NCBI GenBank assembly: GCA_947034895.1
Contig: OX344762.1
Span: 14,141,501-14,205,500 of the forward strand
Source: Rhytidiadelphus loreus
Lineage: Eukaryota > Streptophyta > Bryopsida > Hypnales > Hylocomiaceae
Length of the DNA: 64,000 bases
Direction of reading: 5' to 3'
Under the pieces are notes generated by a model. That model saw only the letters and a program-made list of their open reading frames with translations, did not search any database and was not told the origin of the DNA. Below, piece by piece: positions 25,826 to 61,774 of this stretch. Positions within the stretch are counted from its first letter, which is position 1; every line of letters begins with the position of its first letter. Made by a program: the position numbers and the translations under genes.

Positions 25826-26861
25826 TCATGTCATTTTCTTCCCTTTATTCTCTCTTGGAGATCTTCGGGGGATGAAATGATCGTTCCCGTGCCTAGTGTA
25901 CTTTTTCACGACATCGGGATACTCTAGCAAGAGGGACCCGTCTTGCCATGAAGCGCACGCGCGCACTCTGAGTCCGAGCTTCGTCTGCCTCATCGGAAAG
26001 TCGGGGGCCCAACAGAAGGGGTTACTGGACAGGTATTGCGACACGCTAAGACCGGAATCTAGCAAGTCGCGGAGATACGAGGCCAACGTCCCCAACAGGA
26101 TTCTGTCGTGTTCGCTGCCGGCATAGGACAAGGGGAAAATGGCGTTGTAGAGTGGATTGAGGATGGTGCTCTCGGGCGAGCAATCGACGAGCAGGGTGTT
26201 GGTGGAATTTGCCCTGAAATTCGGCGCCCTGAACCTATCTTTGTCCCAGACGCCCTTGTGCAGGACTTTCAGCCGCAACTGCCCCTCGGGATGATCGGGG
26301 AACTGAATGTAAATGTTCTCCTCGAGATCGGGATCGGGCGAGACGTGGATGGGGTGCGCGGGGCAAGGTGCGTCCGGAACATACGGCGGAGGCCTGCACC
26401 TACACGCATTCGCCGGCCGTCTCTCGACTATGGAGATTCAGGCGCAAGGATTTCAGGCACTCCATGCCGCGGAAGAGGAAGTCCACCACCGGTCTGGCGA
26501 TTGCGGCGGGCAGTCTGGTCCACACGGACAAGTGGAACTTCTCGTCCAAGTTTTTCAAGAACTGGCGCATGTGCGGACGGCAGTAGAGGGTGTACTCGCC
26601 GAAGATGTGGCGTCTACTCGGGTTGTATTCTTCCTCCGATGGGGCCTCTCCCAGGGGCACGGGATTGTGCAGGACTCGTTGAACGTGCTGGGTTCGACAC
26701 AACACCCCCTCTACCTCCAGGATCAGGAAATAACTGAAGGAGGGAAGGGCGACGGGAGGGGGCGTCTCGTCGGGCGGCTGCGAGGCCTGCGGATGCGAAA
26801 CCCCATGCTCAAAGTGGACTTCAGAATGAATGACATCGATCCAGAACAACAGACATGCGTG
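25826..26861 (-). pseudogene. Exon 5 of the large minus-strand gene: FCP1/NIF-like HAD phosphatase, degenerate
   Basis: SYFLILEVEGVLCRT corresponds to the HAD nucleophile block, normally DxDxT, but both aspartates are glutamate. YCRPHMRQFLKNL and HLSVWTRLP match the next conserved block. After a one-base frameshift near 26400, the sequence LLVDCSPESTILNPLYNAIFPLSY (26160-26190 and on) followed by a YLRDLL helix matches the C-terminal FCP1 motif (DDSP, then N..AI..P..Y). FCP1/NIF enzymes dephosphorylate serine in proteins such as the RNA polymerase II tail. This copy lacks the nucleophile and is broken, so it is a pseudo-enzyme or pseudogene. It ends at TGA 25826-25828. Confidence 0.65.
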
Positions 26862-26990
26862 CTAATGGAGATGTGCCGGGAAGTCTTCCTCATCGACGAG
26901 CTAATTCAATCGGACGTGCTATTTCTAACGGACGCGCAAACCCGATACAGACAAGCTAGGTAAGAGAGTTGGAGGGAAATGGAGCCTCAC

Positions 26991-27179
26991 CTTTCTTACA
27001 TCCGTGGGGGTGGCGACCTGGACCGCAGGCACTACTCGCCCAATGGCATCGGGAGTGTCGACTTCCATGGGGATGGCGACGGTTTCCTTCCGGCGAGGGG
27101 ACAACGACCGACGAGGTGGAGCAACCGAAACAGGTGGGGACATTGCAGACGCGTCGCCCAGTACAAGAGCTTTGTCACC
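26991..27179 (-). CDS. Exon 4 of the large minus-strand gene
   Basis: Sixty-three codons in phase 0 lie between a GGGTTCAG acceptor and an AAG|GTGAGG donor. The peptide is Pro/Arg/Val-rich linker (SVAPPRRSLSPRRKE) without a recognised domain. The call rests on splice sites and phase only. Confidence 0.4.
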
Positions 27180-27567
27180 CTGAACCCAAAATCAAAAGAG
27201 CGTAACTAGATTGCACATAATCAATTGAAAAGAAAAACGTATTGCGAAATGGAATGCAGTCACCAGAGATTGAGCAATTTATGTTTGTCAACAACACATC
27301 CAATATATTACAAATATAACAATGTTTTACAAACGGACCCACTCTCACAGAAGAGATTTTCACATCCTAAGCCCACGTCTACGCTCCATGAATATGACAA
27401 CCGAAATCCTAGCGAAGACAAAGAGAACCCCTATGACTACGGACCCATAGCCCCGTGGACTCGCCAGGATCTGGACGAACTCAAGGCCCCGGCGTAACGC
27501 CCTCACATAGCGTCCACACCTTCACGACAAACATAAATGATGGGAGCTATGTCGAAGGGTTACCCAC

Positions 27568-29767
27568 CGCGGGAGCCTCGTCGACATTGACTGGCGCCTG
27601 CTCCTCCTCCGTCTCCGGGCTCTGCTGCGTCGCCATCGCGGCCTGTACGCGGGGCATATTGCTCAGTCAAGTTAGTGAAGGACTGTTCCATATCTCCCAA
27701 GTCCACGTCGAGGTCGTAAGGGTCATCGTTGTGCATGATAGGACGATGGGAGAGTTCATGGACATGCACAAACGGAAATTGACTGAGGGCCAGGTCATCG
27801 ACATCTGGCTCGTGAGTGACACTCACCCCGGTTTGCGTTGCCTCTCCGGAGGCCAGGTACCGAAGGCCAGATGCCGCGGACGCCGTCGCCGAAGCCGAGT
27901 TCGTGGAGACTCCCGAGACGTTGTGAAGCTCGCTCGCTGGAGTTGGAATCGGAGAGACGGGAGGAGGAGAGGGAGAAGGCGCCGTCTTGGAAGTATGGAT
28001 TTGCGACTTCATTTCCCTCATTTCCCTTATGAACTCCATGTTCTCCTTCCAAGCCGCTGCGTTTAGCTCATCCTTCTCAGCCTGTTTCCTCCTCTCCTCC
28101 GCGAGTTCCTTCTCCCTGACTGCTTTCTTCGCCTTTCGCCTCGCCTTCTTCTCCGCCTCCTCCTGCAGCCATTGTTGCCTCTCCCGCTCCATTTTCTCCT
28201 CCCTCAGCTGTTGTTGCTTCCTCTCTTCCTCCTTCTCCCTCCTCAACGCATCGATTTCTTCAATGCACTTGTCCATCTTCCCAGACTCCTTCCTCCTGAC
28301 CTGTTCGGCAATTCTCTCCGCGAATGCGACGTTGATCCCGACCTTGACGTCCGGCTTCGTCTCCGCAGTCGCCGCGACGGAACTCCCCCCGACCCCAGGT
28401 ACAGTCCCCGTGTCCGATGATGATGCAGCTTGGGCGACCCTGAGAGTCTCGTCATACCCCTGCCTCAGCTTGACCGAATTGGACAAGCGCGTCTCGAGGT
28501 CCAATTCATCCATGTCATCGAGTTCGATCGGGCTCTCCTTGGAATTCTTAACTCTCGACAGTTCTCTCGCGCTTGCCGTAGCATGGGCGCACATCGCTTG
28601 CTCTTCAGGGCTGGGTTCAGGGATCTCCAACTCAAGAGCGTCGACGGCGACCTGCACAAGCGTCAATGTCGTCACGCTCACTTCCTCTCTAAGAGCGGAC
28701 GCGGGATGGAGGGACTTCAAGTCCTTGACGATGGTCCGCGACTCCTGGATCCTCTCTTTCATCGTCTTCTCGGAGGGCGTGGCGGGGGTGTGAATCAGAT
28801 CAAGCCTCGCTTTCTCCATCTCGTTTTGCTGCTCTTCAGAGAGTCGTGACCTCAGCAGACCCAACTCTATCTGCAGGTCCTCTATCTGCATCCTGGGTGG
28901 AGTGGATGGCGTCACCCATTCCGACTGATGAGAGCTCGCGGTTCCGATCGATGGAGTACGGGAAGCAGGAACGCGAAACAGGTGAGCTCGCACATCAGAG
29001 CGCCCGCCCTGAACCTGTTGGGATGGCGGAGGTCGACGCCAGGACTGCGGGGAAAGGGAAGTAGGCAAGCGGGAGTGGACCAGTCCTGAGCGGGAGCTCC
29101 CAAGTGGCTGAGATGGTCGAGGCGGTCGGGCAAGAGATAGAGGATCAGACTGGGATTGGTGCGGACAGGAATCAGTCCGCCCGCTCTGATCTGCTCCGGT
29201 CTGAGAAGGAGAAGACGGAGGAGGAATGGGATCAGAGCGCCCGCTCTGATCTGCTCCAACTTGAGATTGAGAAGATGGAGGTGGGATGGGATCAGAGCGG
29301 GCGGTCTGATCTGCTAGAGGAGTGGAGTGAGACGGCGACGCCGGAGGAATTGGATCCTCCGGCTCATCATGGTGAGAGTCCGGCCTCGGCTGCCTGCTCC
29401 GGTCAAGCTGCTCTGATTGCTCGGTCGCATCGCTGTTAGCACGATCCAACGACGGCTCCCTGTTTCCCTAGACGCCTTCCTCGTCTGGCCGATTCCCGGT
29501 CTGCTCACTTTGTTCATCTCCTTCTTGTTCGTCCGCGTTGATGTCGGGGTGCTCGATTTCAACGTGGTCGACGTCCACGATGTTGAGGGCCTCGTCCGCT
29601 TTCGCTTCCTCGACGGTAGGATTGGGCTCCTCGTCCAGCTCCGGCCGGGTGGCTCTCGCCGGTGTCGGGGTGACATAGCTGTAACGCAACGTCCAGCCGG
29701 GGACTAGAATATCCGGCCACATCTCCGCGCCTTTGCGATTATGCTGGGATTGACGCAGGAGGGCCTT
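27568..29767 (-). pseudogene. Exon 3 of the large minus-strand gene: low-complexity, coiled-coil region
   Basis: It begins at a CACTCAG acceptor (29768) with KALLRQSQHNRKG and is open to 27560 except for TAG at 29468-29470. The first part is acidic. 29310-28900 encodes Ser/Pro/Gln-rich repeats with ADQSGRSDPIPPP units that contain the palindromic DNA motif described separately. The middle is a long charged helix (EEKMERERQQWLQEEAEKK type, about 28280-28050), very likely coiled coil. Near 27650 a different frame gives a more natural ending (ATQQSPETEEEQAP) and a phase-0 donor GCG|GTGGGT at 27567, so a one-base insertion there is inferred. Confidence 0.5.
29188..29310 (-). repeat. 60-bp coding tandem repeat that contains the CAGAGCG palindrome
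   Basis: The word GATCTGCTCC recurs at 29188, 29248 and 29308, an exact 60-bp (20-codon) period. Each unit ends in the palindrome GATCAGAGCG, SS centre, CGCTCTGATC (29230-29251 is perfect). In the minus-strand frame it encodes repeats of the form ADQSGRSDPIPPPSS. Diverged units continue to about 29150. This places the non-coding array motif inside an exon. Confidence 0.8.
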
Positions 29768-29920
29768 CTGAGTGGAGATGATCAGAGTGACAGAGCTACG
29801 CGACAACATCTACGGGCATTCAAAGGTTTTAGTCATTACTGATATTACAATGTCTAATGCCCGCTACATCGAGATGTACATCAGAAGAACTATGAAAACA
29901 CAGCGTGGTCAGGTGCTCAC

Positions 29921-31363
29921 CGTGCACGCCGAAATTGGCTTCGCACCAGCGAAGACCAACATGACGGTTCCTTGATCCCTACAGAACTTGTCGATGAAGT
30001 GCAGATACACCTCGTATCGGAGCTCATACTTCGACAAGGTCCTCGGATTGTCGTGACGACAAACCTCTCGATTCATGTAGATGGTTTCCTCATTGGTCAG
30101 GTCCTCGTCCTCCTCAACATACAGCGAGGGCACCTCGTCGTTCGTGTTCACCACACTCGAGTTGACCCACCTCCACCGGGACCTCTGTAGGTACATCACG
30201 GAGACCTTGTTCTTCTCCTTGTACGTAGGTTCCCCCGCCCGACATACGTACTTGCACTCCCGCCGCATGTTGTAATCAGGAAGCAGTTCCTTCACAGCTT
30301 TGTCCACATCAGCCGCCCGCTTCGAAAAGAAGATCAGCATCCAAGTGTGGACGGACAAGGACATGACGGACTGCGACACCACCTCCACCTCCTCGAGGAT
30401 TTTCTTGTTGGCGGAATTGATCTCCATGGTCTCCACACCCGGAAACTGGCGGAAATCGATGATGCCCACCTCGCAGTACTTGAGGTTAGCGGGTCCGTCT
30501 ATAGCGCGTTGGGGGACCCAGTTCTCCCTCTTGTAGACGTACAGCGTTGGGTCGAACCTGCTTCCGGCTCGAAGCCAGCGGCACATTGAGGCCCGCGAAT
30601 ACCTCCGCACATACTCACAGCGTTCATAGTTCACCATGACACGATCGAAGGTGGCAAGGAGCTCATCGGACGGTAGGACGCTCTTCTTTCCTGAGCGCAC
30701 CTCCGACTTCAGGTACTCCGGATTGATGGTCTGGAGGTACCAGGTGTGGAAGCCGTTGATGCGCAACTACGTCTTGAAGTCCTGCCACGCTTGCGGTTCA
30801 ATGTCTCCGGCTGCGTTGATGACTTCGCCTGCCGATATCATGCCGCTCGACTTGCCCCTGTCTGTCAATTCCCTCGCCAGCACATTCTTGTACTTTCTGT
30901 TCGTGCACCACATGGCGATGGGAATGGCCGAAGTCCACGAATTCGGCTTCTTGTTGAAATAGACCTTTGGTGGTATATCGAGGATTTTCCGCGCAAGCTC
31001 ACCCACCGCCGCATCATCGAGGCCGTGCAGGTTCTTCATCATATTGCTCGTGATGGGGAGGAACTTGTACAACTTCACGTTCCCCTCGGTCGTTGCTTCG
31101 TTGAAGGGTCCCCCGGAGTCAATGTCGTGAAGTGACCCCGACTCATGACCTTGGAAAACCTTCTGCCATGTGGCCCAAGTCTCCTCCGAAGCCATGATCA
31201 CCTTCCGCTCCCCCATCCGGTCCAGGTCGGAGATTCGTTGGGAGTTGCCCGACGGCTTGAGAAGACTAGTCGATTCGAAACTCTGCTCGGCTTTGACACG
31301 AAATTCTTGCAGGAAAATTAACACATTTGAGTCGGACTCGGAAGTTGGATCCGAGTAGACCGA
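29921..31363 (-). pseudogene. Exon 2 of the large minus-strand gene: methyltransferase-like domain, internal TAG
   Basis: The exon runs from a CTCAG acceptor at 31364 to an ACG|GTGAGC donor at 29920, 481 codons in phase 0, with one TAG at 30767-30769. The C-terminal half follows the order of a beta-class N4/N6 DNA methyltransferase. EVGIIDFRQFPG stands where DPPY (motif IV) is expected. VHTWMLIFFSKRAADVDKAV matches the strand-helix after it. LSKYELRYEVYLHFIDKF followed by GTVMLVFAGAKP resembles the F-x-G-x-G motif I at the end of the domain. Both signature motifs are altered, so catalysis is doubtful even without the stop. ParB-methylase fusions are known from phages and bacteria. Confidence 0.5.
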
Positions 31364-31556
31364 CTGAGGTTCAGCGGATCAGAGTGGGCGCTCTGATCCT
31401 GCCAGTCCTAATTCCTCCATCTCGGGGAGGGCAGTTTCCTATCCATAGACGGTATCCTAACCAAATCGATTCAGAGCGCCCGCTCTGATCTTCAGACTCC
31501 CAGACTTAGATTCAACATGAATTGAATGGGCAGGATGGATCGACTAAAATGCGTAC
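31364..31556 (-). other. Intron 1 of the large minus-strand gene, with two palindromes
   Basis: A 193-bp GTACGC...CTCAG intron in phase 0. It carries two CAGAGCG-class palindromes, at about 31377-31399 and 31470-31490. The paralogous gene has an intron at the equivalent place (53983-54242) that carries palindromes of the other class. Confidence 0.65.
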
Positions 31557-33314
31557 CTCGTAGCGAGCAAATTCTTTGCCTTGTTCTTCCTTCCTCAGGT
31601 TCTTCCACTGCTGCGCCGGCCTTCGAGCATTGTCCCACATATAGCGACAATGCTGGATTGTAGCCGGCAGCGACGACAGATACGGACCTGTCACGTTCCC
31701 GTCGTTGCACTTGCACGACAGCGCGTGCAAGTGATTCTTGTTGTCGGACCATACGACCTCGCATGTCCACTTGCGCACCTTCTTCTTCAGCGCCTCGTCG
31801 TCGACCGATGCCTCTCCCGAGATGATTTCTTTGGCCGCTTTCCAGGTGTGCTGGCCGTTGATGATCTTCAGCGGAAAGGACTTGACGCAATCCGCCCAGC
31901 ATGTTGGCCTAGCCTCCGTGTCCGGCATCACGGTCAGGATTTGCTTGGTGAAGTTGACCTTCACCATTCGATCAAGCACGGCCATCACACCCTTCTTCTC
32001 CAAGGGTCGAAAGATCATACCCGACTTCTCGTCCGCCTGAATCATGTCGTCGACTTCGAGCTCAAAGAATGTCCCCCGCCCGAATATGTACATGGACTTG
32101 GACAGTTCTTTGAACTTCTTATTCGCCACAGCCTCGGCCTTTAGTCGCTTCCTCGCCTCTTCTTCCTCCGAGCGCTTGGCCTCCCTCTTCAAGACGAGAT
32201 CCACAAACAGCTTATCCGGAACGGCGTCGGGATCGTAAGGCACGGTGTCTGGGTTGTCCAACCATTTCCCATTCACCTTCTTGATCGCCTGCTTCTGCGC
32301 GACCTCCTCGGAGACGTCAGTGTTGTCCGGCAAGTCGCTCTGCTGTGAGGAGCTGGGCGACTCAGCATCTGCCCACCGTTGCCTGACCATCCTCGCCGCA
32401 TCTTGCGATGATCCGGCCGCGACCTCAAGTTGAGGATTCCTCTTCCTCGTGGCTTTTCTCTTTTCCCGCGACCTCGGTCCGGAACGCCCCGCAGATTCTT
32501 CGGCAAGCTGCGGAGGGATGATTGGGTCCCTCTCTGCCTCCGGGACGGTTGGTGTGTCACCAGTTCGAGCTGCCGGTTGGGCTGGGATGTTCGCGCCCGT
32601 CTCGGTTACCTCTGACGCGAGAGAAGCATAGGGTTGAGTTTGCACCACGTTAGAGGCTCCAGCCAGGGCCGATGCGGCCGGCGGTCTGGCCCGCGTGGTT
32701 GCGCTGGAGCTCGATGCTCCTCCCCTCTTGGATTTCTTCTGCTGTCGACCTTGCGAGTCCATTTTATTTACTTGCTTCTGCTTGGACTGGAGTTCGACTA
32801 TTACCGCAGCCTGTAGATTGTTTGCATTGGTGAGAAATGATTTTACTGCCTGACCAATTGCTACAAAATCGTCTAAATGAGCTTCTACTCTACCTTTGAT
32901 GTCGAGCATCAAGGTTTGGAATATATGGGGAACTTGCTCGTAATTTTTCAGGATGCGTTCGTGACAGAACGTCATCTCATCTTCTACCCTAATGGCTAGC
33001 ACTCCGAATGCGTTGTTCGAAGTGTTCACTACATCTACCAGAATGGCCTCGCGCAGCACATTCACATTGATGACTACGAGTTCCCTGAATGTTTTCCATC
33101 TGGGGTCTCCGTTACTCGTGAAGCCTAGTTCTAAACAAAATACGGGGGAGCCCTCGAGGTAGCTCATCTCCACGGTCCACAGGGCCTTGGATGCGACAAA
33201 CTCCAGAGGAGTTTTCCCTTCGACGAGTGCCGTCCAGGACTCGTGCACTCTCTCTGACGCAATTGGTTTGATGTACCCGGTGAGGTGTGGCGTACTATCG
33301 AGGAAGGACTCCAT
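31557..33314 (-). CDS. Exon 1 of the large minus-strand gene: novel N-terminus and ParB-like domain
   Basis: The ATG at 33314 starts MESFLDSTPHLTGYIKP; 586 codons are open to a GAG|GTACGC donor at 31556. Residues 1-200 are unrecognised. Residues 200-370 are low complexity and basic, with an SREKRKATRKRN cluster like a nuclear signal. Near 32060-31700 the layout is that of a ParB/sulfiredoxin-fold domain: ELEVDDMI, IFRPLEKKGVMAVLDRM, TKQILTVMPD, then PLKIINGQHTWKAAKEI (about 31880-31830), which corresponds to the ParB GxxR / DGQHR signature, followed by a CEVVWSD strand. ParB domains bind DNA and CTP or act as nucleases in bacteria and phages. What this one does is unknown. Confidence 0.65.
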
Positions 33315-33479
33315 TGCACTGTGCACACACACTGGTACAAATCAGACCGTGCGCTCTAATCCGCACCTGGATATAAAGCAGTGGCGGTACTACTAATTAT
33401 GAAGTAGTTTTCGACCGAGGGGCTTTACTTGATTCATCATTTGCTTGGAGACTGAATTCTAGTCTATTCTACTTGGTTA

Positions 33480-35165
33480 GACTGCGGGCCCGCTCTTCAT
33501 GATTCGTCATTTATATTCACGGGTAAGATCAGAGCGGGCGCTTTGAATCTCTCTCGAGTATATCCTTCATGGGAGATGAATTAATAATCACCAGCAATAT
33601 TTCATTAAACTGAGTTGGGGTCTAGGGCCATTACTATGGAAGGTTTACCATGATCTATGTCTAATTCATCTCTGGTAATCGAATGCACCCTCGGTAAGCG
33701 GAGTGATGTTCAGCTAGACTCCGCGAAGGAGGTTTAGAGCGGGCGCTCTGATCATCCCCTTGTTTATCTGGTACTAATGAGGATCTGATTTCCCTTCTAT
33801 CCTATCCCTACAAAAGTGATACTTCACTATATACAATGCGGTCAGTTATCTCTTCGACTGAATCAGAGCGCCCACTCTGAACCGCTTTGTGTTATTCCCT
33901 TTTGGTGAGGTTTAGGACGCCCACTCTGAACCAGTTTCTAATATGCTCGACCTATTTGATTTAGAACGCCCGCTCTAAACCTGTTTTGAATCTGCTCGAC
34001 CTATTCTGTCCAGAGCGCCTGCTCTGAACCTAACTGAGCGCTATAGCTTGTAGGGTGTTTGGAGGATCAGAGCGGGCGCTCTGATCCTGCACTCCTTTGA
34101 TTGTTTCAAAGCGCACTCTGATCTTCAAAGCTGAAAGGCTTGCTCTGGTAGGTCCTGTGTGGGAGCTCGATCCTCCCCGACAACGAATATTTAATTAAGT
34201 CTCTATGATTCGAAACAGGCTTCTGAGAGGATCAGAGCGGGCGCTCTGATCCTCTGGGCTTTGAGTTGGTTCATTGCGCCTGCAGTGATCCTCCCGCCTC
34301 GCATGGTCTCTCTGGTAGGTTTAGGTCGGCCGCTTTGATCCTCCCCGACTATGTTTGATACAACAATATCTCTTTCGTTCACTACAGCATTCTGAGAGGA
34401 TCAGAGCGGGCGCTCTGATCCTGTAGGATTAGGATTGGTATAGAGCTCTTGCTTTGATCCTCGAAGCACCGAAGATCGATCTGGTAGGTTCAGGGCGGGC
34501 GCTCTGAACCTCCCCTACTATGTCAAATTCAGTGCGCTCTATTTCATCCAAAACAGTATTCTGAGGATTAGAGCGGGCGCTCTGATCCTCCCCGACTACG
34601 TTTGATACAGCAATCTCACTTTCGTTCAATGCAGCATTCTGAGAGGATCAGAGCGGGCGCTCTGATTCATCCCGACAACGTATGATTCTATAATCTCTCT
34701 CTCATTCAAATGTGCATTCTCAGGGGTTTAGGGCGGGCGCTCTGAACCTCCCCGGCTACGTAGAATTCAACAATCTCTCTTTCAATCAAACAACATTCTG
34801 AGAGGATCAGAGCGGGCGCTCTGATCCTCCCCAGTAGGAATGATTAATTAATTTCACTTTCGTTCAAAGCTGCATTCCGAGAGGATCAGAGCGGGCGGTC
34901 TGATCCTCCAGGATTTGGATTGGTTTAGGGCGCCCGCTCTGATTCTCCATGCACCCAACATTGCTTGGGCAGGTTCAGAGCGGGCGCTCTGAACCTCCCC
35001 GACTAGGTACAATTCACGTCGCTCTCTTTCATTCAAAACAGCATTCTGAGGATTAGAGCGGGCGCTCTGATCTTCCCGGGCTTGGAATGGTTCAGAGCGC
35101 CCGCTCTAATCCTCCAAGCACCCAAGAAGGCTTGGGAAGGTTTAGGGTGGGCGCTCTAAAGTATT
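33480..35165. repeat. Array of about 25 CAGAGCGGGCGCTCTG-type palindromes
   Basis: The core has 7-bp arms CAGAGCG/CGCTCTG around GG or CC. Arms reach 14 bp in the best copy (34226-34255). From about 34390 to 35150 the copies are spaced by about 80 bp within a tandem monomer that also holds words like CATTCTGAG, CCTCCCCGACTACG and CTCTCTTTC. Some copies have GGATC...GATCC arms (34064-34087) and others GGTTC...GAACC (34972-34995), so both arms change together. The array starts about 170 bp 5' of the ATG of the large minus-strand gene. Confidence 0.9.
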
Positions 35166-38170: not shown

Positions 38171-38215
38171 TAGAAATATTCAGTTTTCTGCAGTTGTGTC
38201 CTTTTATACAAATTT

Positions 38216-46537: not shown

Positions 46538-47600
46538 ATCAGTGCGCCCGCTCTGAACCTTTTTGATGCCTCCAAAGTCGCGTTCGTGATTGGTGCCTTT
46601 TTCAATTCAGAGCGGGCGCTCTGAACTGAATCGTGAGGTCCACACTGTGCCGGCAATGAGTTCAGGGCGGGCGCCCTAAACCTTTTTTTCGTAGACGTGG
46701 ACTTAGTCATTTTTCGGTCCAATTCAGTTCAGAGCGCCCACCTTGATTTGGATTTCCGTGGTCACGGTCTCGCCAATCTGTAAGGACCCAGTTCAGAGAG
46801 GGCGCCCTAAACCTATTTTTCGTAGACGTGGATTTAGTCATTTTTCGGTCCAATTCAGTTCAGAGCGCCCACCCTGATTTGGATTTCCGTGGTCACGGTC
46901 TCGCCAATCTGTAAGGACCCAGTTCAGAGAGGGCGCCCTAAACCTATTTTTCGCAGACGTGGATTTAGTCATTTTTCGGTCCAATTCAATTCAGAGTGCC
47001 CACCCTGATTTGGATTTCCGTGGTCACGGTCTCGCTAATCTGTAAGGACCCAGTTCAGAGAGGGCGCCCTAAACCTATTTTTCGCAGACGTGGACTTAGT
47101 CATTTTTCGGTCCAATTCAGTTCAGAGCGCCCACCCTGATTTGGATTTCCGTGGTCACGGTCTCGCCAATCTGTAAGGACCCAGTTCAGAGCGGGCGCCC
47201 TAAACCTATTTTTCGTAGACGTGGACTTAGTCATTTTTCGGTCCGATTCAGTTCAGAGCGCCCACCCTGATTTGGATTTCCGTGGTCACGGTCTCGCCAA
47301 TCTGTAAGGACCCAGTTCAGAGAGGGCGCCCTAAACCTATTTTTCGCAGACGTGGACTTAGTCAGGTTTCAGTCCGATTCAGTTCAGAGCGCCCGCTCTG
47401 ATGTGGATTTCCTTGGCCACGGTCTCGCCAATCAGTAACTTGGATCCAGTTCTGAGAGGGCGCTCTGAACTAAATTGGAGAGACCAGAGACCTGACAGCT
47501 TTCTTGGAAACAATTGTGAGTGGGCACTTCAAGCATTGATCCTGTTTATCCTGTGTGACACGACCGAGTCTAGTTGTGTTCATGGCGGGCGCTCTGATCT
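46538..47600 (+). repeat. 131-bp satellite with CAGAGCG/GGGCGCCC palindromes
   Basis: CAGTTCAGAGAGGGCGCCCT starts units at about 46789, 46920, 47051, 47182 and 47313, with a first, more diverged unit near 46659. Each unit holds two palindromes: one with a GGGCGCCC centre, and one of the form TTCAGAGCGCCCACCCTGA. Isolated CAGAGCG-class palindromes flank it (46540, 46612, 47392, 47584). It ends about 350 bp before the start codon of the transposase-like gene at 47948. Confidence 0.9.
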
Positions 47601-50900: not shown

Positions 50901-51245
50901 GGATTGGATTGTGAAGAGCCCGTGTGGCTTGCTAGGGCAGTTGAAAATCCGCAATTTGATCCAATGGCGGAGCACTTTCGTGAAGTTTTGGTACAATGGC
51001 ACACCCCATGCGGAGCATCGAAGGACCCTCAACGATTGTACGCAAGCTGGGACACGAAGACCAATTTCAGATGGAGGGTTGATCGTACGGCCGAGAAGGC
51101 TGACTACATTTCTACGGACAGTATAATGGCATCGTGGAAACCAAAGAAGAATGATGGGAACAGTTTCATTGCCCCCCGTCAGCAAGTGCAATTTGCAGTG
51201 GATCATTTACGTCGAATTGCAGAGGACGAACAACGAGGCTCTTGA
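47948..51245 (+). CDS. Transposase-like protein with HDKMD / QMDN / GHTHDDMD motifs, apparently intact (three exons)
   Basis: Exons 47948-47980, 48090-49184 and 49365-51245 join in phase 0 through introns of 109 and 180 bp (GAG|GTGCAG...CTCAG and AAA|GTAGGG...TTGCAG). They give 1002 residues and a TGA stop. The N-terminus is acidic (MTSSSESDGDE then EECEEEDVDLE). The C-terminal exon has IMHDKMDHSKT (about residue 474), LHIQMDNSWRENKNRYVF (about 599) and VSFMIVGHTHDDMDASFGR (about 635), the pattern of a large uncharacterised plant, oomycete and algal family that I know as DUF7869-like. The spaced Asp residues suggest an RNase-H-fold DDE nuclease. A CxxC pair (SICDNLKQ region) precedes. It is the only large gene in the window without a visible lesion. 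Confidence 0.8.
47981..48089 (+). other. Intron 1 of the HTHDDMD transposase-like gene
   Basis: 109 bp, GTGCAG...GCTCAG, phase 0. The short first exon codes 11 acidic residues that continue smoothly into the acidic start of exon 2. The small exon makes this model less certain than intron 2. Confidence 0.5.
49185..49364 (+). other. Intron 2 of the HTHDDMD transposase-like gene
   Basis: 180 bp, GTAGGG...TTTGCAG, phase 0. Read-through would stop at 49194, while splicing fuses two long frames. Confidence 0.7.
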
Positions 51246-52100
51246 TTTTTTTTTAGGGCGGAGGGCTCTTGGTAAAAAAATTTTTGTTGCTTACAATGCT
51301 CCCGTGCACTGTAGAAGTCAGTAGAGTGGCAGAAGATGCAAGAAATGGTGCTCATTTGCATGTTCATCGACATTTGTACCCTCCAATTTTATTAAAGTCC
51401 AGAAAATCAAGTTCCCGCACATGCCTCGTTTATTCTTCTAGGCCCTACTCCAAATTCAATCTTTGCGGTCCTCACGATCCTCAACAATGCAAATCTAAAG
51501 ATTTTCTAAAACTTCTGCACATCATGACTCCTAACCAAAATGTAATCCAATGTTTGCTTTCCTTCCATTCTAGAGGTCGACATCTCTCGCGCCCACACTA
51601 GGAAGTATCATGCAAAACTCGGACAACTATATAAAATTCAAGGCACTTTCTTCCTTACAAGTCCTACAAAGAAATCCACACCCCTCTGTTTCAAAAATCG
51701 CACTTTGCCAAACTTCCATGTACAAATGGCACATGGAATACCGCCATTTTAACGAAATTGCCCATAGTGATAAAGAAACGCCTGTGGTAGCTAGAAATTG
51801 TGTATGATACATAGTGAAATCGGAAGTGCACGCAGAAATGCCAAAATGCCTTGAAACCTTACAACCAAACATTCCAGTCGTTATTATTATTGGAAGAAAT
51901 GGCAGTTGCAGACCATAAACCCTAATTTCATGGGCACATCTCCCGATGAAAAGGTACAATATACTGGAAAAGCACTTCTGCAGAAGTCTATGGAGGGTTC
52001 TCCCTTAAGATTCATAGTAAACGAATGTTAAAAGAAAGAGAACGTCTACTGGAAAACCTTGAACCGACAATCGTCGCAAAATAAAACGAAGAAGCCAGAA
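51246..52100. other. No gene seen between two plus-strand genes
   Basis: Short unrelated frames only. TCTCCCGATGA (about 51942) and CGGGATCTCCCG (52109-52120) are the first members of the palindrome class that follows. The missing 5' exon(s) of the next gene could lie here but were not identified. Confidence 0.4.
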
Positions 52101-52206: not shown

Positions 52207-52604
52207 CTCAACGGGAAAACTCCCGATGAAAAAGGTATGAAGATAGAGTACAACAAGGATGTTCAGTAGGAGGGCTTAGAAAATCAACGGGAAAACTCCC
52301 GATGAATAAGGTATGAAGATTAAGTTCAAAGAGGATTTCAGTATGGCTTAGAATATCAACGGGATAACTCCCGATGAATAAGATACGAAGGTAGAGCTGA
52401 ACAAAGATAATCAGTAGGAGGGCTTACAAAATCAACGGGATAACTCCCGATGAATGAGGAATACAGACAGAGTTGAACAAGGGTGTTCAGTATGAGGGGT
52501 TTGAATATCAATGGGATAACTCCCGATGAATAAGGTATGAGGGTAGAGTTCAATAAGGATGTTCAGTAGGAGGGCTTTGAATAACAACGGGATAACTCCC
52601 GCTA
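52207..52604 (+). repeat. 75-bp minisatellite with CGGGATAACTCCCG palindromes
   Basis: Six units start with ACGGGAWAACTCCCGATGA at about 52211, 52287, 52359, 52435, 52510 and 52587 (spacing 72-77 bp). Between them run AAGGTATGAAG, AGAGTTCAA and TTCAGTAGGAGGGCTT. The array ends 50 bp before the acceptor of the first identified exon (52661), so it is probably intronic or leader sequence. Confidence 0.9.
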
Positions 52605-52661
52605 ATAACTCAAAACAGTGATGATAAAGTGAACGTCTAACTTTTGTGTCACATTGCGCAG

Positions 52662-53982
52662 AGCGAATACCTTGAAGGAACTGCCTTCCACCCTGTCACC
52701 TATAAGGTTGTACAAGTTCATAGATTCATTCGTGCATACGTTTGAATACACCGGAGACCACGATCCAGGAGTAGTGTTCCGATGCGATCGAAAAGTGACA
52801 GCGTGGGGCTTCGAGTGGATGGACCAGCCAGATGGGTCCGTAATCATATGCCCGAAGCTTTCCTTCGAGAAGAGGGGTCACATTACGACAGGTTTAGACG
52901 TGTTGCAGCTTCTTGGGCTAGATAACTCCACAGTCCTTGTCATTGTTCGCGAGATGGTTCCTAGGACCCAAGACCCAAGAACATATGGGTTGATCCTTGA
53001 TTATGCCACTATGGATCTCGACATGTGCGAGACCATCACACGGAAGGGGATCTTAGACAAGCCAGGCGGTTGCCAGTCCTGGACCTTTGAAGAGATGAAG
53101 AATGAGTGGGACCTTATTGACGACCTCCATAACCAGGCAAAGCCCTCCACTGTAGCAGTTGTACAAACTGCAACACAATCTCCTTCGAAGAAGCCGAAAA
53201 AGCGAAAATCCATTGCGGGAGCACCAGATGATGAAGTTGTGGAAGAAGATGAGTCAAAGGGCAAGGGCAAGAAAAAGATGAAAGTTGTTCCACTCACTAT
53301 TCACCGTGCTGTGAACATGACGGATGTAGAGGTCAGGAAGCTCCAACCTGCAGAAATAAGAGAAATCAACAAGTTGTACAACCAGGTTTTCAAGCCAATG
53401 TACAAATGGGAGAAGAAGCCATTAGCCAATGCAAAAAGTGAACTCCTCCGAGTGAGCTACAAGTTCCTGCACAAGGCTCCTCCTGGAGTACTTGTGTACA
53501 GAGGGATTGAGCCGACGCGATTGGCCGGAATAAAAAATCGCATTCTCGTAGATTGCGACTACCACTCGGAGAACCGGTACATTACTGTTCTCCCCTTAAA
53601 GCGAGGACCTTACGGTCCTGACAATAAGGTGACCTTCTGGGACTCGTGTCCAAAGAAGGAGAGTCTAACCGCCAAAACGCACTACTACATTATTGGTGGT
53701 CAGTACACTACGCAAGCGCATAGGGAGTTGATTGAGAATGGAGACATCCCCGAGGCTGACAAGTCAGAGGCGTCCACCTTCAACATCATTCCCATATGGG
53801 CACCGTATGATACCAAGAAGAATGAAATCATGCACCTTTCCAAAGCTCTAAACCAAAACGTTGCTGGTGAGCAGAAGGAGCAGAGCTTCACTCAGCAGCT
53901 TGCACACGCTCGAATAAAGTGGAAGGACATGGGCAGCCCGGTGCCATCATACGGAGGACGAGCGCACTCAGAAGTGTACAAT
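52662..53982 (+). CDS. Exon of the second ParB-like gene: N-terminal region and ParB-like domain
   Basis: It runs from a TTGCGCAG acceptor to an AAT|GTAAGT donor. The first 170 residues are unrecognised and do not resemble the paralogue. A basic linker (KKPKKRK, KGKGKKKMK; about 53190-53280) looks like a nuclear signal. NRYITVLPL, then HYYIIGGQYTTQAHREL (about 53680-53735) and NIIPIWAP..KKNEIMHLSKALNQNV line up with the ParB-like block of the paralogue (IINGQHTWKAAKEI). The GGQ signature has Tyr in place of the usual His. Confidence 0.6.
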
Positions 53983-54242
53983 GTAAGTTCAAAACACGAA
54001 ACTTTGAAATGCTTCACGTACTCTTATTTTTCCTCAACTGCAATTCCAGCGGGAGAACTCCCGTTGTCCTCAGACTTCTGAAGAAATTTATAGTCGTTGA
54101 GGTGTAGCTCGATGTTTATGAAACAAGCATGCATGGACCTGAAATAGACGAACAACGGGAGTTCTCCCGATGGTCCTGTGTGTCACAATCTACTGAAGTC
54201 GCCGAAACCTTCCCAATTAATAGTGTCGTCGTTCTTGTGCAG
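53983..54242 (+). other. Intron with two CGGGAG-type palindromes
   Basis: 260 bp, GTAAGT...GTGCAG, phase 0. Palindromes: CGGGAGAACTCCCG at 54050-54063 and CGGGAGTTCTCCCG at 54156-54169. The position corresponds to the palindrome-bearing intron 31364-31556 of the paralogue. Confidence 0.7.
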
Positions 54243-54652
54243 GATTTCTATCCGGTGATGTTCTCTATCTTTACAGGGTTCAAGAATCCTGACAACCCGG
54301 ATTTGAAGATTCCGCTCCTCTTTATGGAGAAGGACGAGGATGTGAAACGTTGGATTCAGATTGACATGGACTTCCTCAGCTTCAAGCTTCCCGACGGTAA
54401 CGGACCCAAATCCAAGGGCAAACGCAAACCGTTGGGATACACCGACTTCAAACCCTTGTATGGAGTGCGCGATGAGGATTTGAACTACTTGGCGGGCCAA
54501 GTGGAGAAGGGAATTGTGTGCATGAAGAAAACGGTTCTGAACATCGATTTCTTCAGAAAGTCAGTCACTCCAATCGCTGTGGCAGCAGGCCGGGAGAAGA
54601 AGGTGCGGGCCATGAAGAACGAGCTCATGTGCCACTACAGGCAGCACCCCCT

Positions 54653-57600
54653 GTCGCAGCACAGGATACGCAATTCCCATGTTATACTACCAAAAACCAC
54701 TCTAAAGTATAACAAAAGTGACTTTAAAGATCGAACCTACGAGATTCTGTGAAGTATTCACCCTATTTACGATTCTAAGCTAAGTCAGTCTCCAACTACA
54801 CCTTTCCGGTCCTACTCCTGCAACCGGAAACAACAAAACCCACAGAAGTAACTACCAGACTTCCTACAACCTTCCGGTCCCAGACCTAATCCGGACCAGG
54901 AAGTAATCCGGTCTGTTAACCTGCAACAAAACCAAGACCTTTACACTTCCGGTCCTGGGTACAACTCTTAGACCTATAACTTCCGGTCTACTCCCACTCG
55001 ATCCAGTAACCAATCCGGTTTAATTTTGCCTCTGTTTTACCATCAGAGGGATCGCCGCTTGAATTTGAGAGTGGCAGGCCCGCCGCTCCTTCTGTGACTT
55101 ATAGTGGCTGAAGACCCACTTCTTCTACTCTACTCCCCTACTCTAATCCGGATCCGGTTTGATCTTTCACAGTAATCCAGAAAACAATCCAGATCACAGG
55201 TCACACAAAGACCCCCCGTACGATCCACACATACTACAATGACCTTGATGCCAAGTTCCGGCCGTACTAAGATAGGTGTCTGCAAGTACAACCGTCCATA
55301 CCAACATCAACTAAGACTCTTCCGTTCGCCACTACAGCAATGAGGCCTCACAACAGTTCGAACACTCGACCGGATTTCCTATCCAGGAGTTCTAGCGTGC
55401 CTAAGGACTCCTTCCCTATACGCCTAGCCTAGCAGTGGCTTCCTCAACCGGAATACTGAATCCTAGCAATGCTGAGGCACTAGAAAGCACTCCCAACTCT
55501 TACTACCTGCCTTCATGTACTCAAAACCAAAACAAGAACACAAAGGGGAGAAATCCCAATCCAAACTCTAAATGCGCTCCTAACTCCTCATCAATCTGCA
55601 CTGCCAACCGCGGGAGAACACACAAACAAGGCGCCAATAGAATACAAAAGAAGTTTGAACAAAAGAAGACTCCCATTCTCCTCCGTAGAGAATGAATTTA
55701 TATACACTGTAAAGCGCCAAAAAGCGAAAAGCGCCCCAGAAAATCCTCGCAGGCAACCCACGCTAGATTTCCGGGATAAGCCTCGCTGGCAAAATCAGAA
55801 TGCTAACCCGGTTCAAAACCCTAACAGACCGGAATACTAATCCGGTTCCTAACTAACAGACCGGGATCCAATCCGGTCCGGTTTCTAACTACAATCCGGT
55901 CATAACATCCGGTATTTACAAAACTACTTTACACTAAGACCCCATGCCCATCTTCAATGTGACGCTGACGGTCTCAGGCGGAAGCTCGTCGAAGACCTCC
56001 TGCAAGTTCCTGGCCCTCTCACCAGTAGGAGGATCCGGTCACTCTGGCAATGAATCCAACTCGATGTGCTCAGCAGATCCGGTCTCTCTCGGTTTCCGCT
56101 CCTTCTTTGACTGGGGAGTAACATCCTTCCCCTGGTTTAACTCTGTTCCTCCCGGAAACGACTCAGGAAAGGAAATATCCGAAAGACGGATACTCCTTGA
56201 GAGTAAAGTTCCGGTCAGCTTCACGCTGCTCATCTCCATCCGGTCCGTAGCTTCCCGAGCTTCCCTCATAATTGCCTCAACCTTCTTGGCGAAGTCTGTC
56301 AGAATCCGGACCATCCGGGAACCGGATAGCTTCTTGTCCACCAGAAACCCTTCATCAAACAGCTTTGCTTTGGCGACCAACGTTCCGGATTCTCCGAACG
56401 TCTCCTTCATCATCTTCGCTGTCTTCTGGGTCGCATCCGCCATCTCCCTAGTGGCGGCTAAATCTTCTTTGAAGGTGACGATCTCCCCCTTCAATGAGTC
56501 GACTTCATCCTACAGCCGACGATTCTCTTCCCTCAGTTTCCGGTTCTCCTCCGGATTACTGATGTAGTCTGCTACCTTTTCGGGTAACAGACTATCCGGT
56601 TGGGCTCCAATCAGTTTCCCAATCTTCTCCAACGTGATCCTCTTACACTCCCAGTCTCCCCGGATCATGGAGAGGCTCTCTACCAATTCACCGAAAGGGT
56701 CAGCCGGATTACTTCCTTCTGCGACCGGCTTCTTATCCGGTCGGCGTTCCGGTTCTGAAGTCTCGCCCCGCGGCGTTCCTCTTCCGTGCGGAGGTGTCGT
56801 CTTCTGCCGTTTCGTCCTCTTCAACGACTCCTCCTCTTCATCTGTCTCGTCATCTTCCGGTTCCATTCCGGAACCTTCTTCTTCCGGTTCATCATCCGTC
56901 TCCGACTCTCCATATTTCAAAATCGACTCCTGAGATCGCCAGGTCTTCTCCTCCGTATCAGTCAGGACTTGATCGTGATGATACATGTGAAACAAGTAGG
57001 GGGACAGAGGCGTGGGCCTACTCTTCCCTACCCGAGGCACTAAATTGGAAACCAAGTCACTGATGATCCGCGCCCAATCTGCTTTCCGCTCTCCGGTTAG
57101 CGCACCAAAAATTGTGTTGCCGAGAGTCACCGTCACTCTTGTCGGCTTCTCCGGGTGGAAGATCGGAATCAGGAACTTGAGTAGGTTCCGGTTCCGGTCA
57201 TCCTCACAATCATCCACCGCGTATCCATCCTTCGGGTTCGCTGGTCCCGAGAACTTGTCCTTGATGTACTCGTCCTTCCGGCTGGCCATCCCTGAGCCTC
57301 CCGACCGGAACTTGTAGACTTCCCTCCACTTCTCTTCTGTCCAGCGACCAGGACTTCCTCTAACCGTATTATCGAATTGGTTCGATAGCTTCCCCAACAG
57401 CTCGCGGACGACCCGCTCTTCCTTGAAACCCCATGGCTTCTCAGCCAGACCAGTGCACCCCATCTTCGCGAGATCCTCCATCAGCGCGGTCTTTTCCGGT
57501 TCTGTCGAAGGAATAACCGGAACCACCTTCCGGAGTTTAACTTCTGTCAAGACCGGGCTAAATCTTGACTTGCGTAGCTGCGGCATGGACGCGTTCCTGA

Positions 57601-58191
57601 GGCGCTCAAGCACTTCCCAAAGACTACCTCACTTCCACTCCTAGCCGCACGTCCCGTTCCTTACTTTCCCTCCTGGTCCTGACCGGAAAGCAACAAATTG
57701 CAACTGTGGATGTCCAACCCCACAGCGCCCAAAAGAACTACTCACTAATGACGCCCTACCTCACAAATCTGAAGAGAAATCACAAAGAAGAAACACAAAA
57801 CAGCCCCAAGCGTGAAAACAAGCCTCAGCGCTCAAGGTAGAAAAGGGGTACTAACTGGCAAGGCCTCTCCTTATATAGTCCCAGGCTCTCAGCGCCGCCA
57901 GAAATTAGGTCAAATGACCTAATCTGGTTAACCCTAATCCGCTCCTGACCTAATCCGGTCCTCCAGATCTGATCCGGACAGAACCAATCCGGTTCGGACT
58001 GCCCAATCCGATCCAAACCAATCCGGTCCAAACAGATTCCGTAACAGACTAGAATCCGGTTAGTTCCTTAATTGCATTCCTCAACTAATTTCTGGTTCTA
58101 ACTTATCCCTAAACCGGATTGGTGTTCCTGCAGAGAACTTCCGCTCCTAATTTTAAGATAACTTGACAAAACCAAAAATTCACACTGCGAC
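54653..58191 (-). mobile_element. 3,539-bp DNA transposon with 7-bp TIR and 7-bp target duplication
   Basis: The element starts GTCGCAG (54653-54659) and ends CTGCGAC (58185-58191). It is flanked by ACCCCCT on both sides (54646-54652 and 58192-58198). The insertion splits a coding exon, and excision with one target copy restores the frame, so the boundaries are firm. Beyond the 7 bp the ends diverge quickly. The outer 400-500 bp on each side are filled with AATCCGGT/ACCGGA words, like subterminal transposase-binding repeats. It encodes one broken protein on the minus strand that is not a recognisable transposase, so it is probably non-autonomous or of an unfamiliar class. 1-1173 is a relic of the same family. 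Confidence 0.9.
55934..57586 (-). pseudogene. Transposon-encoded protein, 550 codons with TAG and TGA
   Basis: The ATG at 57586 (MPQLRKSRFSP) is the first in a long frame that ends at TAG 55934-55936. It is interrupted by TAG at 56510-56512 and TGA at 56039-56041. The N-terminal 200 residues contain WTEEKWREVYKF and LTGERKADWARIISDLVSNL, followed by a PLSPYLFHMYHHDQ block. This faintly resembles the plant mobile-element protein domain often annotated as putative plant transposon protein; I am not sure of this. The centre is acidic (about 56900-56800). The C-terminal third is charged coiled coil (NPEENRKLREENRRL and on). The relic at 344-751 keeps CGA where this copy has TGA. Confidence 0.6.
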
Positions 58192-59221
58192 ACCCCCTCC
58201 CGAGTAAAAAGCCTGAATACATTCTATACACAGCAGCAGCGTGGGATGAATTTGCAGATGAAAAGAAAATCACCAGGGAGCAACTTGAATGGTGGGTGGA
58301 TAAGAGCATGGACACGGAGCTGGGAAAAGAGTGGCTGGAGGGTCGAACAAAGGCCCTCAACAAGACTAACAATCCAGACAACTGCCCAAATGCTGTGAAG
58401 AACATGTGGGAGTCGTTCATGAGCGCTCGTACGGAAGAAGTGGAGGCCGTGGTTTTGAAGGACTTCGTCAAGGACTACCTCTACAAGGTGATGGACGACC
58501 AATGTTGGGACATCACTCAAATTCTGACAGAGGCTTCCGTGAAGGCATGGCGGGGTGAAGCAAAGACCCACATGTACTTCTGGTTCATGTTTGAAGTGTC
58601 AAGTGCAGGCCCCCATGCGAAACTCCTGGAGCAACGCAATTTGAAGCGGCTGTTCGATGCACTGGAGTACAAAGACACCACTCGACACCTTGTGAGAGCC
58701 CGTTCACCAGTAGTTCTCATCACGGATGCTGCTGGATTCCACGACATTCTTGCACACTTGCAGAAGAGGCGGGAGGAGACGAAGGTTAGGGTCTGGGATT
58801 GGTATGTAGTGAATTACATTGCCGACAAAGAGGACGGCTTTCCCAAACAGGTTTCCGGAACGCAGTACAACGTCTTCTTGGTCTTCCTCTTCACCTACGA
58901 CGACGTCCACGGTTCAACGAGCAGCTTCCACAATTTCTTCCCGGGTGCACAAGACATTTCTGCTGTGTACCTCTCCAGGGATTTGGAGGAAGTGGATACT
59001 TTCTACAGGCGTCCAATGATCCCTTGGTTTTCAATTGCGGCGGCACTCGAAATATTCTCTGACCTCATGAGCGACAATATGGTCATTGTAAATGTGAACG
59101 GTGGTCCGGAGTTCACGTCCCTTGGACTGGTAATCTCCTTGATCTTTTTTCTTCAACTTTCTTTTCCTATTCAGTCACTTTGAAGATAGTGCACTGACAT
59201 ATGTTTCTTGAATTCTATCAG

Positions 59222-60854
59222 GTCCACTCGACTAAGGTACTCGAAGTCGTTTTTGACGTGGACACACAATCAAAGACAATCACGACTGCGAGACAGATTT
59301 GGGACCAACTGCATACTGAGAACATTCCTCGTCAGTTGGATGACGACGATGATGCGGAGGAGGACCAGCATGTAGGCAACGAGGAAGCTCAGAACAGTCT
59401 TGCTCATCAGTCGGATGAGGACGATGATGCAGAGGAGGACCAACATGCAGACAACGAGGAAGCTGCGAACAGTCCTGCTCGTCAGTCGGGTGACAATGAG
59501 GACGCGCAAGATCAGTCGAATGACGACGATGACGCGCAGGACCAGCATGGAGGCAACCGAGAAGCTGAAAACAGTCCTGTACAGGACACGCCACATCTGA
59601 ATGACGCGGAACGTAATGATAGAGCTTTGGACAAGGAGAGAAGTGCCACTCGCATCGCGGAGGAGACGGAGAGTGATGTGAATGAGGAAGAAGTTCTGAA
59701 GCCACCTCAAGTGAACCACCCATCAGAGGATAGGGGCAAACATGGAAGCGTTGAGAAAGATCCACCCCAGAAAAAGGTTAGTCACTGTATCTAAACAACG
59801 GGAGATCTCCCGCTGTCAGTTCCGAATTCCGCATGATAGTGATCACTTGAGGAAATCTTACGTGTTGCACTCGCAGGATAAGTCAGCAAGGCCAGTGCTG
59901 CCTCCGGAGGGCTTGGTGCAGTCATCTTCAAGACATGCCTCACATAGTGGAATGTCTGGAAAACGACGTGCACAGAAGAAGACGGACACGGTCAAAGTGA
60001 GGAAGGTTTCAAGCTCTGCACCAGTGCAGAGGATTTCAGGAAGGCGGGCGGAGTTGAGGACGAAGCGCAAGCTGGATGTACACCTCAGTGATGCTGACCC
60101 TCCTCACATTCCTTCGCATTCAAATGTGGAGCCTCGAAGGAATGAGGGCGCAAGCATGTCCTCTCCTAAACCGTCAGGGACAGAGGGTGCTGCAGGTGGG
60201 ACTCCGGAATCGACCAACGCGGCGTCTATTCTTCTGACTTGTTCAGGAAAAGTTGTTGGTGCTTCTCTTATTGCCCCTTCGAGTGTGCCTTTGCCTAAGG
60301 ATGGAGGGTCACTAGGTAAAGAACCCTTTCCGGCTGAGCAATGCTTTGGTGCAGCAGGAGATCTCCTGATGCCTGCTGACCGGGTTAGAAGTCGTCATAA
60401 TGAACGAATGGACGCGGAGCAGCATACTGATGCATCGCGAGATCTCCCAATGCCTCCGACCGAAGAGGTCACCCATGATGCGGGAATGGCCGACAATATA
60501 ATGCAGGATACTATGGCGGACTTGACTCAAATGAGTCCGAAGGTCAATCCGCTGGTAGCTGTCCCACACCCTGGACTAACGCATGCGGACAGACTTAATA
60601 TCAGGAATACATTTCAGAATTTAAGTGATTTCCCTAGTTTTCATGCTAGCCAATCGCCCAATTTGAATAGTAGAGCCTCTCGGGAGGTGCAGGCCGTGTG
60701 GGCAGCGCACTCATATATCTTTAACGACATTTTCCAGATTGTCTCTGACCGTGGACCGCTGAAAACAGAGGGGAAGGGCGTAGGACATGGGGATGATTTA
60801 CCTGGGGGGTCGTTGACGTGGAGGACACAAAGCCTGCGAAGGACGTCGTGAAAG
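59222..60854 (+). pseudogene. Acidic and basic linker exons of the second ParB-like gene
   Basis: Exon 59222-59776 encodes VHSTKVLEVVFDV and then an Asp/Glu-rich block with imperfect 60-90-bp repeats (DDDDDAEEDQH units at 59340-59540). Exon 59877-60854 is Ser/Pro/Arg-rich with a basic patch (KRRAQKK). Introns are 59130-59221 (92 bp) and 59777-59876 (100 bp), both phase 0. A one-base deletion in the G run at 60804-60809 shifts the frame. In the restored frame VEDTKPAKDVVK reaches an AAAG|GTACTT donor whose phase fits the next exon. Confidence 0.6.
59777..59876 (+). other. Intron with a perfect CGGGAGATCTCCCG palindrome
   Basis: 100 bp, GTTAGT...CTCGCAG, phase 0. The palindrome is at 59799-59812, only 22 bp from the donor. 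Confidence 0.7.
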
Positions 60855-61118
60855 GTACTTCTGTGGACACCCTGCGTAGTTCTAGGTCTTCTGTTGAAAG
60901 ATCTAGTGAAACAGTCAATGATCTGTCCAAACATTGACACATAATCAACGGGAGCTCTCCCGCTGTTAATCATTCGATGATCTGTCTAAACATTGAGAGA
61001 TAATCAACGGGAGCTTTCCCGATGTTTTCTTCATAATTCATTTAATAGTCTACTACTTAAATGATCACGCTTCTTGAAGGACTGATCTCTAATTACATTA
61101 TGCTTTAATGTACTGCAG
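60855..61118 (+). other. Intron with two CGGGAG-type palindromes
   Basis: 264 bp, GTACTT...CTGCAG, phase 1 once the upstream G-run frameshift is taken into account. Palindromes lie at 60949-60962 (CGGGAGCTCTCCCG) and 61008-61021 (CGGGAGCTTTCCCG), inside a 58-bp duplicated phrase (GATCTGTCYAAACATTGA). Confidence 0.65.
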
Positions 61119-61774
61119 ATTGTGGCGGACCGTCGATGACCCAACCAAAGACATTGAAAAAGGTAGCTCAGCGCAAGTACTCAGTGGTACTTGACCTCAA
61201 TGGAGTTCTTCTTCACAGGTCCTATAGCCATAATGAAGTCCATGTTGAGCGTCGCCCGCAGGTCACCACGTTTCTGAATTGGCTGCATGGTAGAGCGAAC
61301 GTTGCATTCTGGAGTAGTGTAAGGGCAAAGACCATGGACAATTTGTTGGACCTTGTCCTTGAAAATTGCTCCTTCAGCTGTCGGGATGTCATTTGTCTAG
61401 CTCAGGGGGCATGCACGAAGTCCACGTACAGGGCCCCAGCTGCACCAAATAAACCTATCTTCTTGAAAGAATTGTCGGAATTTCTGCGCCTCCTTGGTTC
61501 ATCTTCTTGGGACAATGTTCTTCTAATTGACGACAGTCCAGAAAAGAACCTCTTGAATGATCCACATAGCGCTGTTCACCCTTAGTCCTTCCGCGGTGAA
61601 ATGAATGACAACTACCTCTGCATGCACTTGATGCCGTGGCTTGATGGCCTCCTGTTGTCTAATGAGGCGGTGCCCGTGTATGTGAGGAATAATCCACTTC
61701 CTGGCGGGCAGTATCCTGTGGATCCTTTATCCAGTTTGGGCTTCGAAATCATATCGGGAATTCAACGTGCTTGA
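61119..61774 (+). pseudogene. FCP1/NIF-like HAD phosphatase exon, internal TAG
   Basis: From the CTGCAG acceptor, GAT (split codon) leads into CGGPSMTQPKTLKK. The HAD nucleophile block is VVLDLNGVLLHRS: the first Asp is present, the second is Asn. RRPQVTTFLNWL and VAFWSSVRAKTMDNLLD match the family. DNVLLIDDSPEKNLLND is motif III (DD). TAG follows at 61583-61585, and the same frame continues with SFRGEMNDNYLCMHLMPWL to TGA at 61772. In the paralogue the TAG position is occupied by Leu. The shortened protein would keep the core motifs but lose the C-terminal helices. Confidence 0.7.

Follow-up and report, generated by a model that had tools for sequence, protein, structure and literature searches.

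In the literature found, sequence-specific anti-silencing of transposons is documented for the VANDAL elements of Arabidopsis, whose VANC proteins are described as binding short motifs that have been multiplied as tandem repeats in their own elements, and as lifting silencing (PMC5735166, PMC10398659). Arrays of the motif bound by VANC21 are reported from introns of VANC21 and VANB21 and from the region upstream of VANA21 (PMC5735166). Here we describe a window, i.e., the whole stretch of DNA that was analyzed, of 64,000 nt from Rhytidiadelphus loreus (assembly GCA_947034895.1, contig OX344762.1, positions 14,141,501 to 14,205,500). It contains two related genes, M on the minus strand and P on the plus strand, each of which is associated with its own palindrome and with a partner gene, D and Q, respectively. 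All results refer to this single window, and the pairings of genes, palindromes and elements were read within its 64 kb. We tentatively favor the possibility that M and P are not host genes but belong, as accessory genes, to two large DNA transposons of two genes each (elements A and B), which might use their palindromes to guide anti-silencing.

The VANDAL elements resemble the locus in that short element-specific motifs are arrayed in tandem within introns and upstream of element genes, that a second gene exists besides the transposase, and that the motifs are family-specific. However, the motifs are palindromes of 16-18 bp here and a directional sequence of nine bases in VANDAL. The partner is a DUF7869 protein instead of a MuDR-type transposase, and the genes encode a ParB fold and a NIF domain, which we take to be unlike the VANC domains.

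Three other described systems share single traits with the locus. ParB-CTPases possess the ParB/sulfiredoxin (Srx) fold, often reside on mobile elements and are found fused to methyltransferases in phages and archaea (PMC12704722); DUF6551, a fusion partner named there, matched weakly in Pfam here. Unlike these proteins, the genes under study have the Box II arginine replaced (GGQHT), contain introns and continue into a NIF domain. The main text of PMC12704722 mentions neither "phosphatase" nor "plant" nor "transpos", in contrast to the ParB-NIF combination found here. HAD phosphatases of the NIF/FCP1-SCP type (PF03031) are linked to both genes by Pfam matches above the cutoff, but the signatures here read DLNGV (gene P) and EVEGV (gene M), and the domain closes a ParB-containing gene. 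The fungal DNA transposons carrying TET/JBP genes likewise combine a transposon with an added gene potentially acting on silencing; their enzyme class is another one, and no palindrome arrays are reported in the part of the source available (PMC12730594). Literature searches gave nothing on DUF7869, nothing related on ParB together with a C-terminal-domain phosphatase in plants, and only work on BREX for a eukaryotic ParB-methyltransferase fusion with a phosphatase domain or a transposon.

Two palindromes and the genes they accompany

Palindrome A (TCAGAGCGssCGCTCTGA) occurred at 42 sites, 26 of them in and near gene M and the other 16 on the upstream side of gene D, confined to 25.4-35.1 kb and 46.5-47.6 kb. 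For palindrome B (ACGGGAGnnCTCCCGT) 24 sites were counted, 16 around gene P and eight upstream of gene Q, confined to 13.65-13.87 kb and 52.2-63.7 kb. Up to three mismatches were allowed for both, and neither was found elsewhere in the window. The two palindromes segregate by gene, without any overlap. In 100 shuffles of the window in 500-base blocks, A was expected 0.04 times on average (maximum 1) and B 1.56 times (maximum 5), so that a few of the B sites may be due to chance. Moreover, the sites are not independent of each other since many of them are arranged in tandem arrays. None of the 16 B sites around gene P and none of the 16 A sites at gene D fell into exons, which make up 0.60 and 0.59 of the respective spans, while four out of 26 A sites were located within exons of gene M (0.66 of the span); the exon models of M, P and D used for these fractions were drawn by inspection. 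Between 28995 and 29309, A palindromes lie within the coding frame of gene M and result in repeated peptides such as DQSGRSDPIPPPSS. A fourth palindrome, AGTACT, was dropped because its enrichment in the first 8 kb was only approximately fourfold.

Each palindrome links one ParB-type gene with one D-type or D-related gene, and the two are divergently transcribed. The B palindromes initially pointed to a partner of gene P near 13.6 kb, and the exon residing there (gene Q) was later found to match exon 1 of gene D (48012-49196, assigned by inspection) with 29% identity over 69 aa (E 8e-5). None of the three open reading frame (ORF) pieces of gene Q matched DUF7869, and its exon gave no Pfam match. 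A MuDR-type transposase was not detected: nine ORFs revealed no family but DUF7869 at E 0.1, and another Pfam search gave no family above cutoff.

The window also contains a 33-bp inverted repeat (Table 1), and no exact inverted pair with arms more than 200 bases apart is longer than its 28-bp perfectly matching core. The repeat encloses genes M and D, whereas Q and P lie outside it. This is the order to be expected had element A jumped in between genes Q and P of element B; such a nesting is what the arrangement appears to reflect. The anatomy of element A (approximately 22126-51765), comprising gene M and the divergent DUF7869 gene, is fairly well supported. Element B, composed of genes P and Q, is less certain, since a search of the window for its end repeats yielded nothing convincing. 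The original prediction had suspected a mobile or formerly mobile gene family. This is supported by the inverted repeat, the DUF7869 partner and the segregation of the palindromes, whereas the nesting and the role of gene D as transposase of element A are inferred. The AT-rich centers of the two elements (14.2-22.1 kb and 35.2-46.4 kb) have in common inverted patches of 454 bp (70% identity) and 106 bp, as well as one 82-bp patch in direct orientation. These patches fit the nesting but are too little to count.

Relationship and domains of genes M and P

The ParB exons of M and P aligned over 165 columns with an hhalign E of 6.2e-5, the value for one single comparison (Prob 65%), and the NIF parts showed 38.7% identity over 62 aa (E 4e-7). 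In both genes a ParB-like exon is followed by a conserved second block, a charged linker and a NIF domain. Judged by these similarities, M and P are true paralogues. Two paralogous genes with this domain order had been postulated before; paralogy and order were borne out, the designation of the second block as a methyltransferase was not. The exons proposed for both genes are open and have GT-AG borders. Exons 1 and 2 of gene M comprise whole numbers of codons, each with a GT donor. The intron that follows its ParB region has phase 0, as does the end of the gene P ParB exon at 53982. The ParB exon of gene P has 20 relatives with identities of 36-74%, and its exon 2 has eleven (42-66%). Position 52662, originally regarded as the start of gene P, is directly preceded by AG (52660-52661), and the stretch 52662-52720 lacks an ATG where the relative P0001 starts. 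Thus, 52662 is probably a splice acceptor, and gene P probably possesses a further 5' exon, absent from our model.

Structure comparison of an AlphaFold model of the gene P ParB exon supported a ParB/sulfiredoxin fold; the modeled exon shares the fold that characterizes the ParB-CTPases. A sequence profile of ParB (PF02195 or similar) was not among the Pfam/NCBIfam matches of 21 family members at E values up to 5, and the sole match, DUF6551, was weak (best E 0.029, two of 21 rows). The conserved Box II arginine of the ParB clamp, which depends on cytidine triphosphate, was found in none of the 20 rows covering this position, 19 of which have T and one M; the remaining row does not cover it. 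This comparison equates GGQHT with GERR, the Box II form of ParB, a correspondence set by inspection. Hence the ParB-type block anticipated from the sequence is upheld in its fold, but neither in a profile match nor in the arginine. Searches of PDB sequences with the profiles A1, A3 and A5 disclosed no ParB, methyltransferase or phosphatase. A search of a viral structure library gave no named ParB and nothing at E ≤0.001, two unnamed targets reaching probabilities of 0.95-0.98. In IMG/VR, no relatives were detected for the profiles of the ParB region and of the second block (two short patterns each) or for the DUF7869 protein (six short patterns).

The second block had been thought to be a beta-class methyltransferase. 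We regard this identity as not established, as there was neither a profile match nor a DPPY motif and the model was weak and ambiguous. DPPY-type motif IV was found in none of seven rows (A3) and in none of 13 rows (A5), many of the latter being partial. A profile of 31 beta-class methyltransferases, comprising 23 of 81 yhdJ and yhdJ-related loci and eight phage genes chosen from 60 listed among 1505 matching phage records, gave a Prob of 0.1% against A3, A6 and A5. Its single local match to A3, which fell on the stretch proposed as motif I, was not significant. Of the searches proposed as a check, the structure comparison supported the ParB/Srx similarity of the gene P exon, and the profile search gave no similarity to methyltransferases. 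The structure model had a predicted local distance difference test (pLDDT) value of 45; Foldseek favored acetyltransferases, while VIA listed MTA1, METTL3 and M.MboIIA. Each second exon is conserved inside its own family, though the M and P versions differ.

The NIF domain (PF03031) scored above the Pfam cutoff of 21.8 bits in gene P and in the first of two gene M pieces, the second piece being below it. By these scores, the domain is present in both genes. NIF/FCP1 phosphatases carry the catalytic signature DxDx[TV]. The corresponding residues are VLDLNGVL in gene P and ILEVEGVL in gene M, and neither DLNGV nor EVEGV agrees with it. An FCP1-type HAD phosphatase, as predicted, is therefore recovered at the level of the domain, with its DxD signature altered in both genes.

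Both copies are damaged. Gene M contains two in-frame TAGs (30767-30769 in exon 2 and 29468-29470 in the linker), and its reading frame changes within 26400-26437 by a frameshift or an intron. Gene P has one TAG (61583-61585) and a 3.5-kb insertion in exon 2. All three stops in the models of the two genes are TAG, which led us to consider a use of TAG as sense codon. This was dropped since the exon 2 relatives are open without such a use, and glutamine occupies the position of the exon 2 stop in two of six; decay is the simpler explanation.

The insertion, already assumed from the sequence, is real: eight out of eleven relatives, P0027 included, read through the site without interruption. Its termini are GTCGCAG/CTGCGAC and the duplicated target, by inspection, is ACCCCCT or CACCCCCT. 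As two of its parts (55591-56340 and 57575-57997) are 96% identical to positions 1-1173 of the window, we regard it on the basis of this identity as a recent transposon. Of 67 TCCGGT sites in the window, the insertion holds 39, and another 14 belong to the copy at the window start. Motif accumulation is therefore not restricted to elements A and B. In the insertion and in the copy, TCCGGT/AATCCGGT is dense in coding and non-coding parts alike. The ORF 57628-56039 (minus strand, one TAG) of the insertion gave no Pfam match above cutoff.

Proposed role of the palindromes

ParB proteins are dimeric DNA binders. As a palindrome suits a dimeric binder and the layout of the sites is the same as in VANDAL, the ParB-fold protein probably addresses its own element and would protect the expression of that element. 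Each element would have built up its own palindrome 5' of both genes and in the introns of the ParB gene. The ParB-fold protein probably recognizes these palindromes and would bind them as a dimer, while the second block and the degenerate NIF domain might keep the element promoters accessible to RNA polymerase II. The outcome would be a sequence-specific anti-silencing or self-activation, functionally like that of VANC on VANDAL transposons. M, P and their partners thus suggest a route by which elements may recognize their own DNA and resist silencing. If this is true, a second system with other proteins and long palindromes would exist, private addressing of own DNA would evolve repeatedly, and the ParB fold would gain an intron-bearing, transposon-borne branch. 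The presence of two palindromes in one window makes the idea of own-site recognition directly testable. One result weighs against this proposal: between M and P, the second block shows no significant similarity (hhalign E 0.024, Prob 2%). A bolder version, which we regard as rather improbable, is that a class of large plant DNA transposons captured ParB-fold self-recognition, protein and palindrome co-evolving like ParB and parS; loading and spreading would keep the chromatin active, and the methyltransferase- and phosphatase-like parts would now be binding modules.

The palindromes might instead serve transposition, the ParB-fold or the DUF7869 protein assembling there at excision without any anti-silencing. 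Both genes of each pair bear the same palindrome at the 5' side and the DUF7869 protein is a possible transposase partner, but the sites reside at internal promoter regions and in introns, away from the 33-bp repeat at 22126/51765, and we consider this explanation unlikely. It is a good deal less than probable, too, that the palindromes represent a satellite or miniature element which spread in this region without any relation to the genes, and the ParB/NIF genes an ordinary host family among repeats. Such an origin would agree with the many tandem arrays of varied period (e.g., 76, 80, 131 and 167 bp) and with A sites in coding sequence; it does not account for the segregation of two palindromes between two related gene pairs, for the avoidance of exons in P and D, or for a family with many diverged members (20 matches at 36-74% identity).

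Two further explanations concern the proteins themselves. Since the exon joins were read from sequence alone and the linker exon borders set by inspection, the exons might belong to separate neighboring genes; order and strand are, however, equal at two loci that are approximately 22-25% alike, and a phase 0 intron follows the ParB region in both, which makes this very unlikely. That the protein actively modifies DNA, like the phage ParB-methylase fusions, and so marks its own element is hardly credible. Fusions of ParB with N6/N4 methyltransferases are reported to be frequent in phages (PMC12704722) and the VIA list would accord with such an activity, but the missing DPPY in the relatives examined, the lacking similarity to the 31 methyltransferases, the low pLDDT and the Foldseek preference for acetyltransferases speak against it.

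Features of the window

Table 1. Coordinates of the elements, genes and palindrome groups in the 64,000-nt window
Feature	Position	Strand	Remarks
33-bp inverted repeat, left arm; candidate left end of element A	22126..22158	+	32/33 identical to right arm; AGTG just outside
33-bp inverted repeat, right arm; candidate right end of element A	51733..51765	-	AGTG just outside
Gene D, encoding a DUF7869 protein; putative element A transposase	48012..51245	+	PF25273, 150.8 bits, E 4.4e-44, in 49290-51245
Exon of gene Q, related to exon 1 of gene D, beside B palindromes	12397..13416	-	two TAGs in frame
Gene M exon 1, ParB-like region (GQHT) at C-terminal end	31557..33314	-	586 open codons, GT donor; hhalign to gene P profile
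Gene M exon 2, conserved block, methyltransferase-like layout unproven	29921..31363	-	44-56% identical to six relatives, P0021-P0026
Charged linker of gene M, exon(s)	27560..29809	-	in-frame TAG 29468-29470; four A palindromes in frame; 3' border provisional
Gene M NIF/HAD domain, split over two frames	25826..26861	-	PF03031, 28 bits + 16 bits
Gene P ParB-like exon (GGQYT; ALNQN)	52662..53982	+	20 relatives; AlphaFold model of 52666-53982 matches ParB/Srx, ~residues 250-400
Gene P exon 2, first part	54243..54652	+	GT-AG borders; relatives spanning insertion site
Gene P exon 2, second part	58188..59129	+	11 relatives
Gene P charged linker, two exons	59222..60850	+	GT-AG borders, by inspection; intron ~59776-59876 with one B palindrome
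Gene P NIF/HAD domain	61117..61774	+	PF03031, 43.3 bits, E 4e-11; in-frame TAG 61583-61585
3.5-kb transposon inside gene P exon 2	54653..58187		ends by inspection; own motif TCCGGT
A palindromes upstream of gene M	33342..35109		19 sites starting 33342-35092, many in tandem arrays
A palindromes upstream of gene D	46539..47597		16 sites
B palindromes upstream of gene Q	13654..13868		8 sites
B palindrome tandem array directly upstream of gene P	52208..52608		6 sites

Apart from these features, ORFs on the plus strand at 2428-5917 resemble, by inspection, another type of transposase (SDGCANQFKS, GKGPHDGAGA) and gave no Pfam match at 0.1. Interstitial repeats of the TTTAGGG type, that of plant telomeres, are located at 15154-15205 and 10588-10605; together with the GT-AG introns, those at 15154-15205 would suit a plant or a green alga. 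The region 23540-24945 is a 704-bp tandem duplication (83%), the units of which also hold long inverted repeats.

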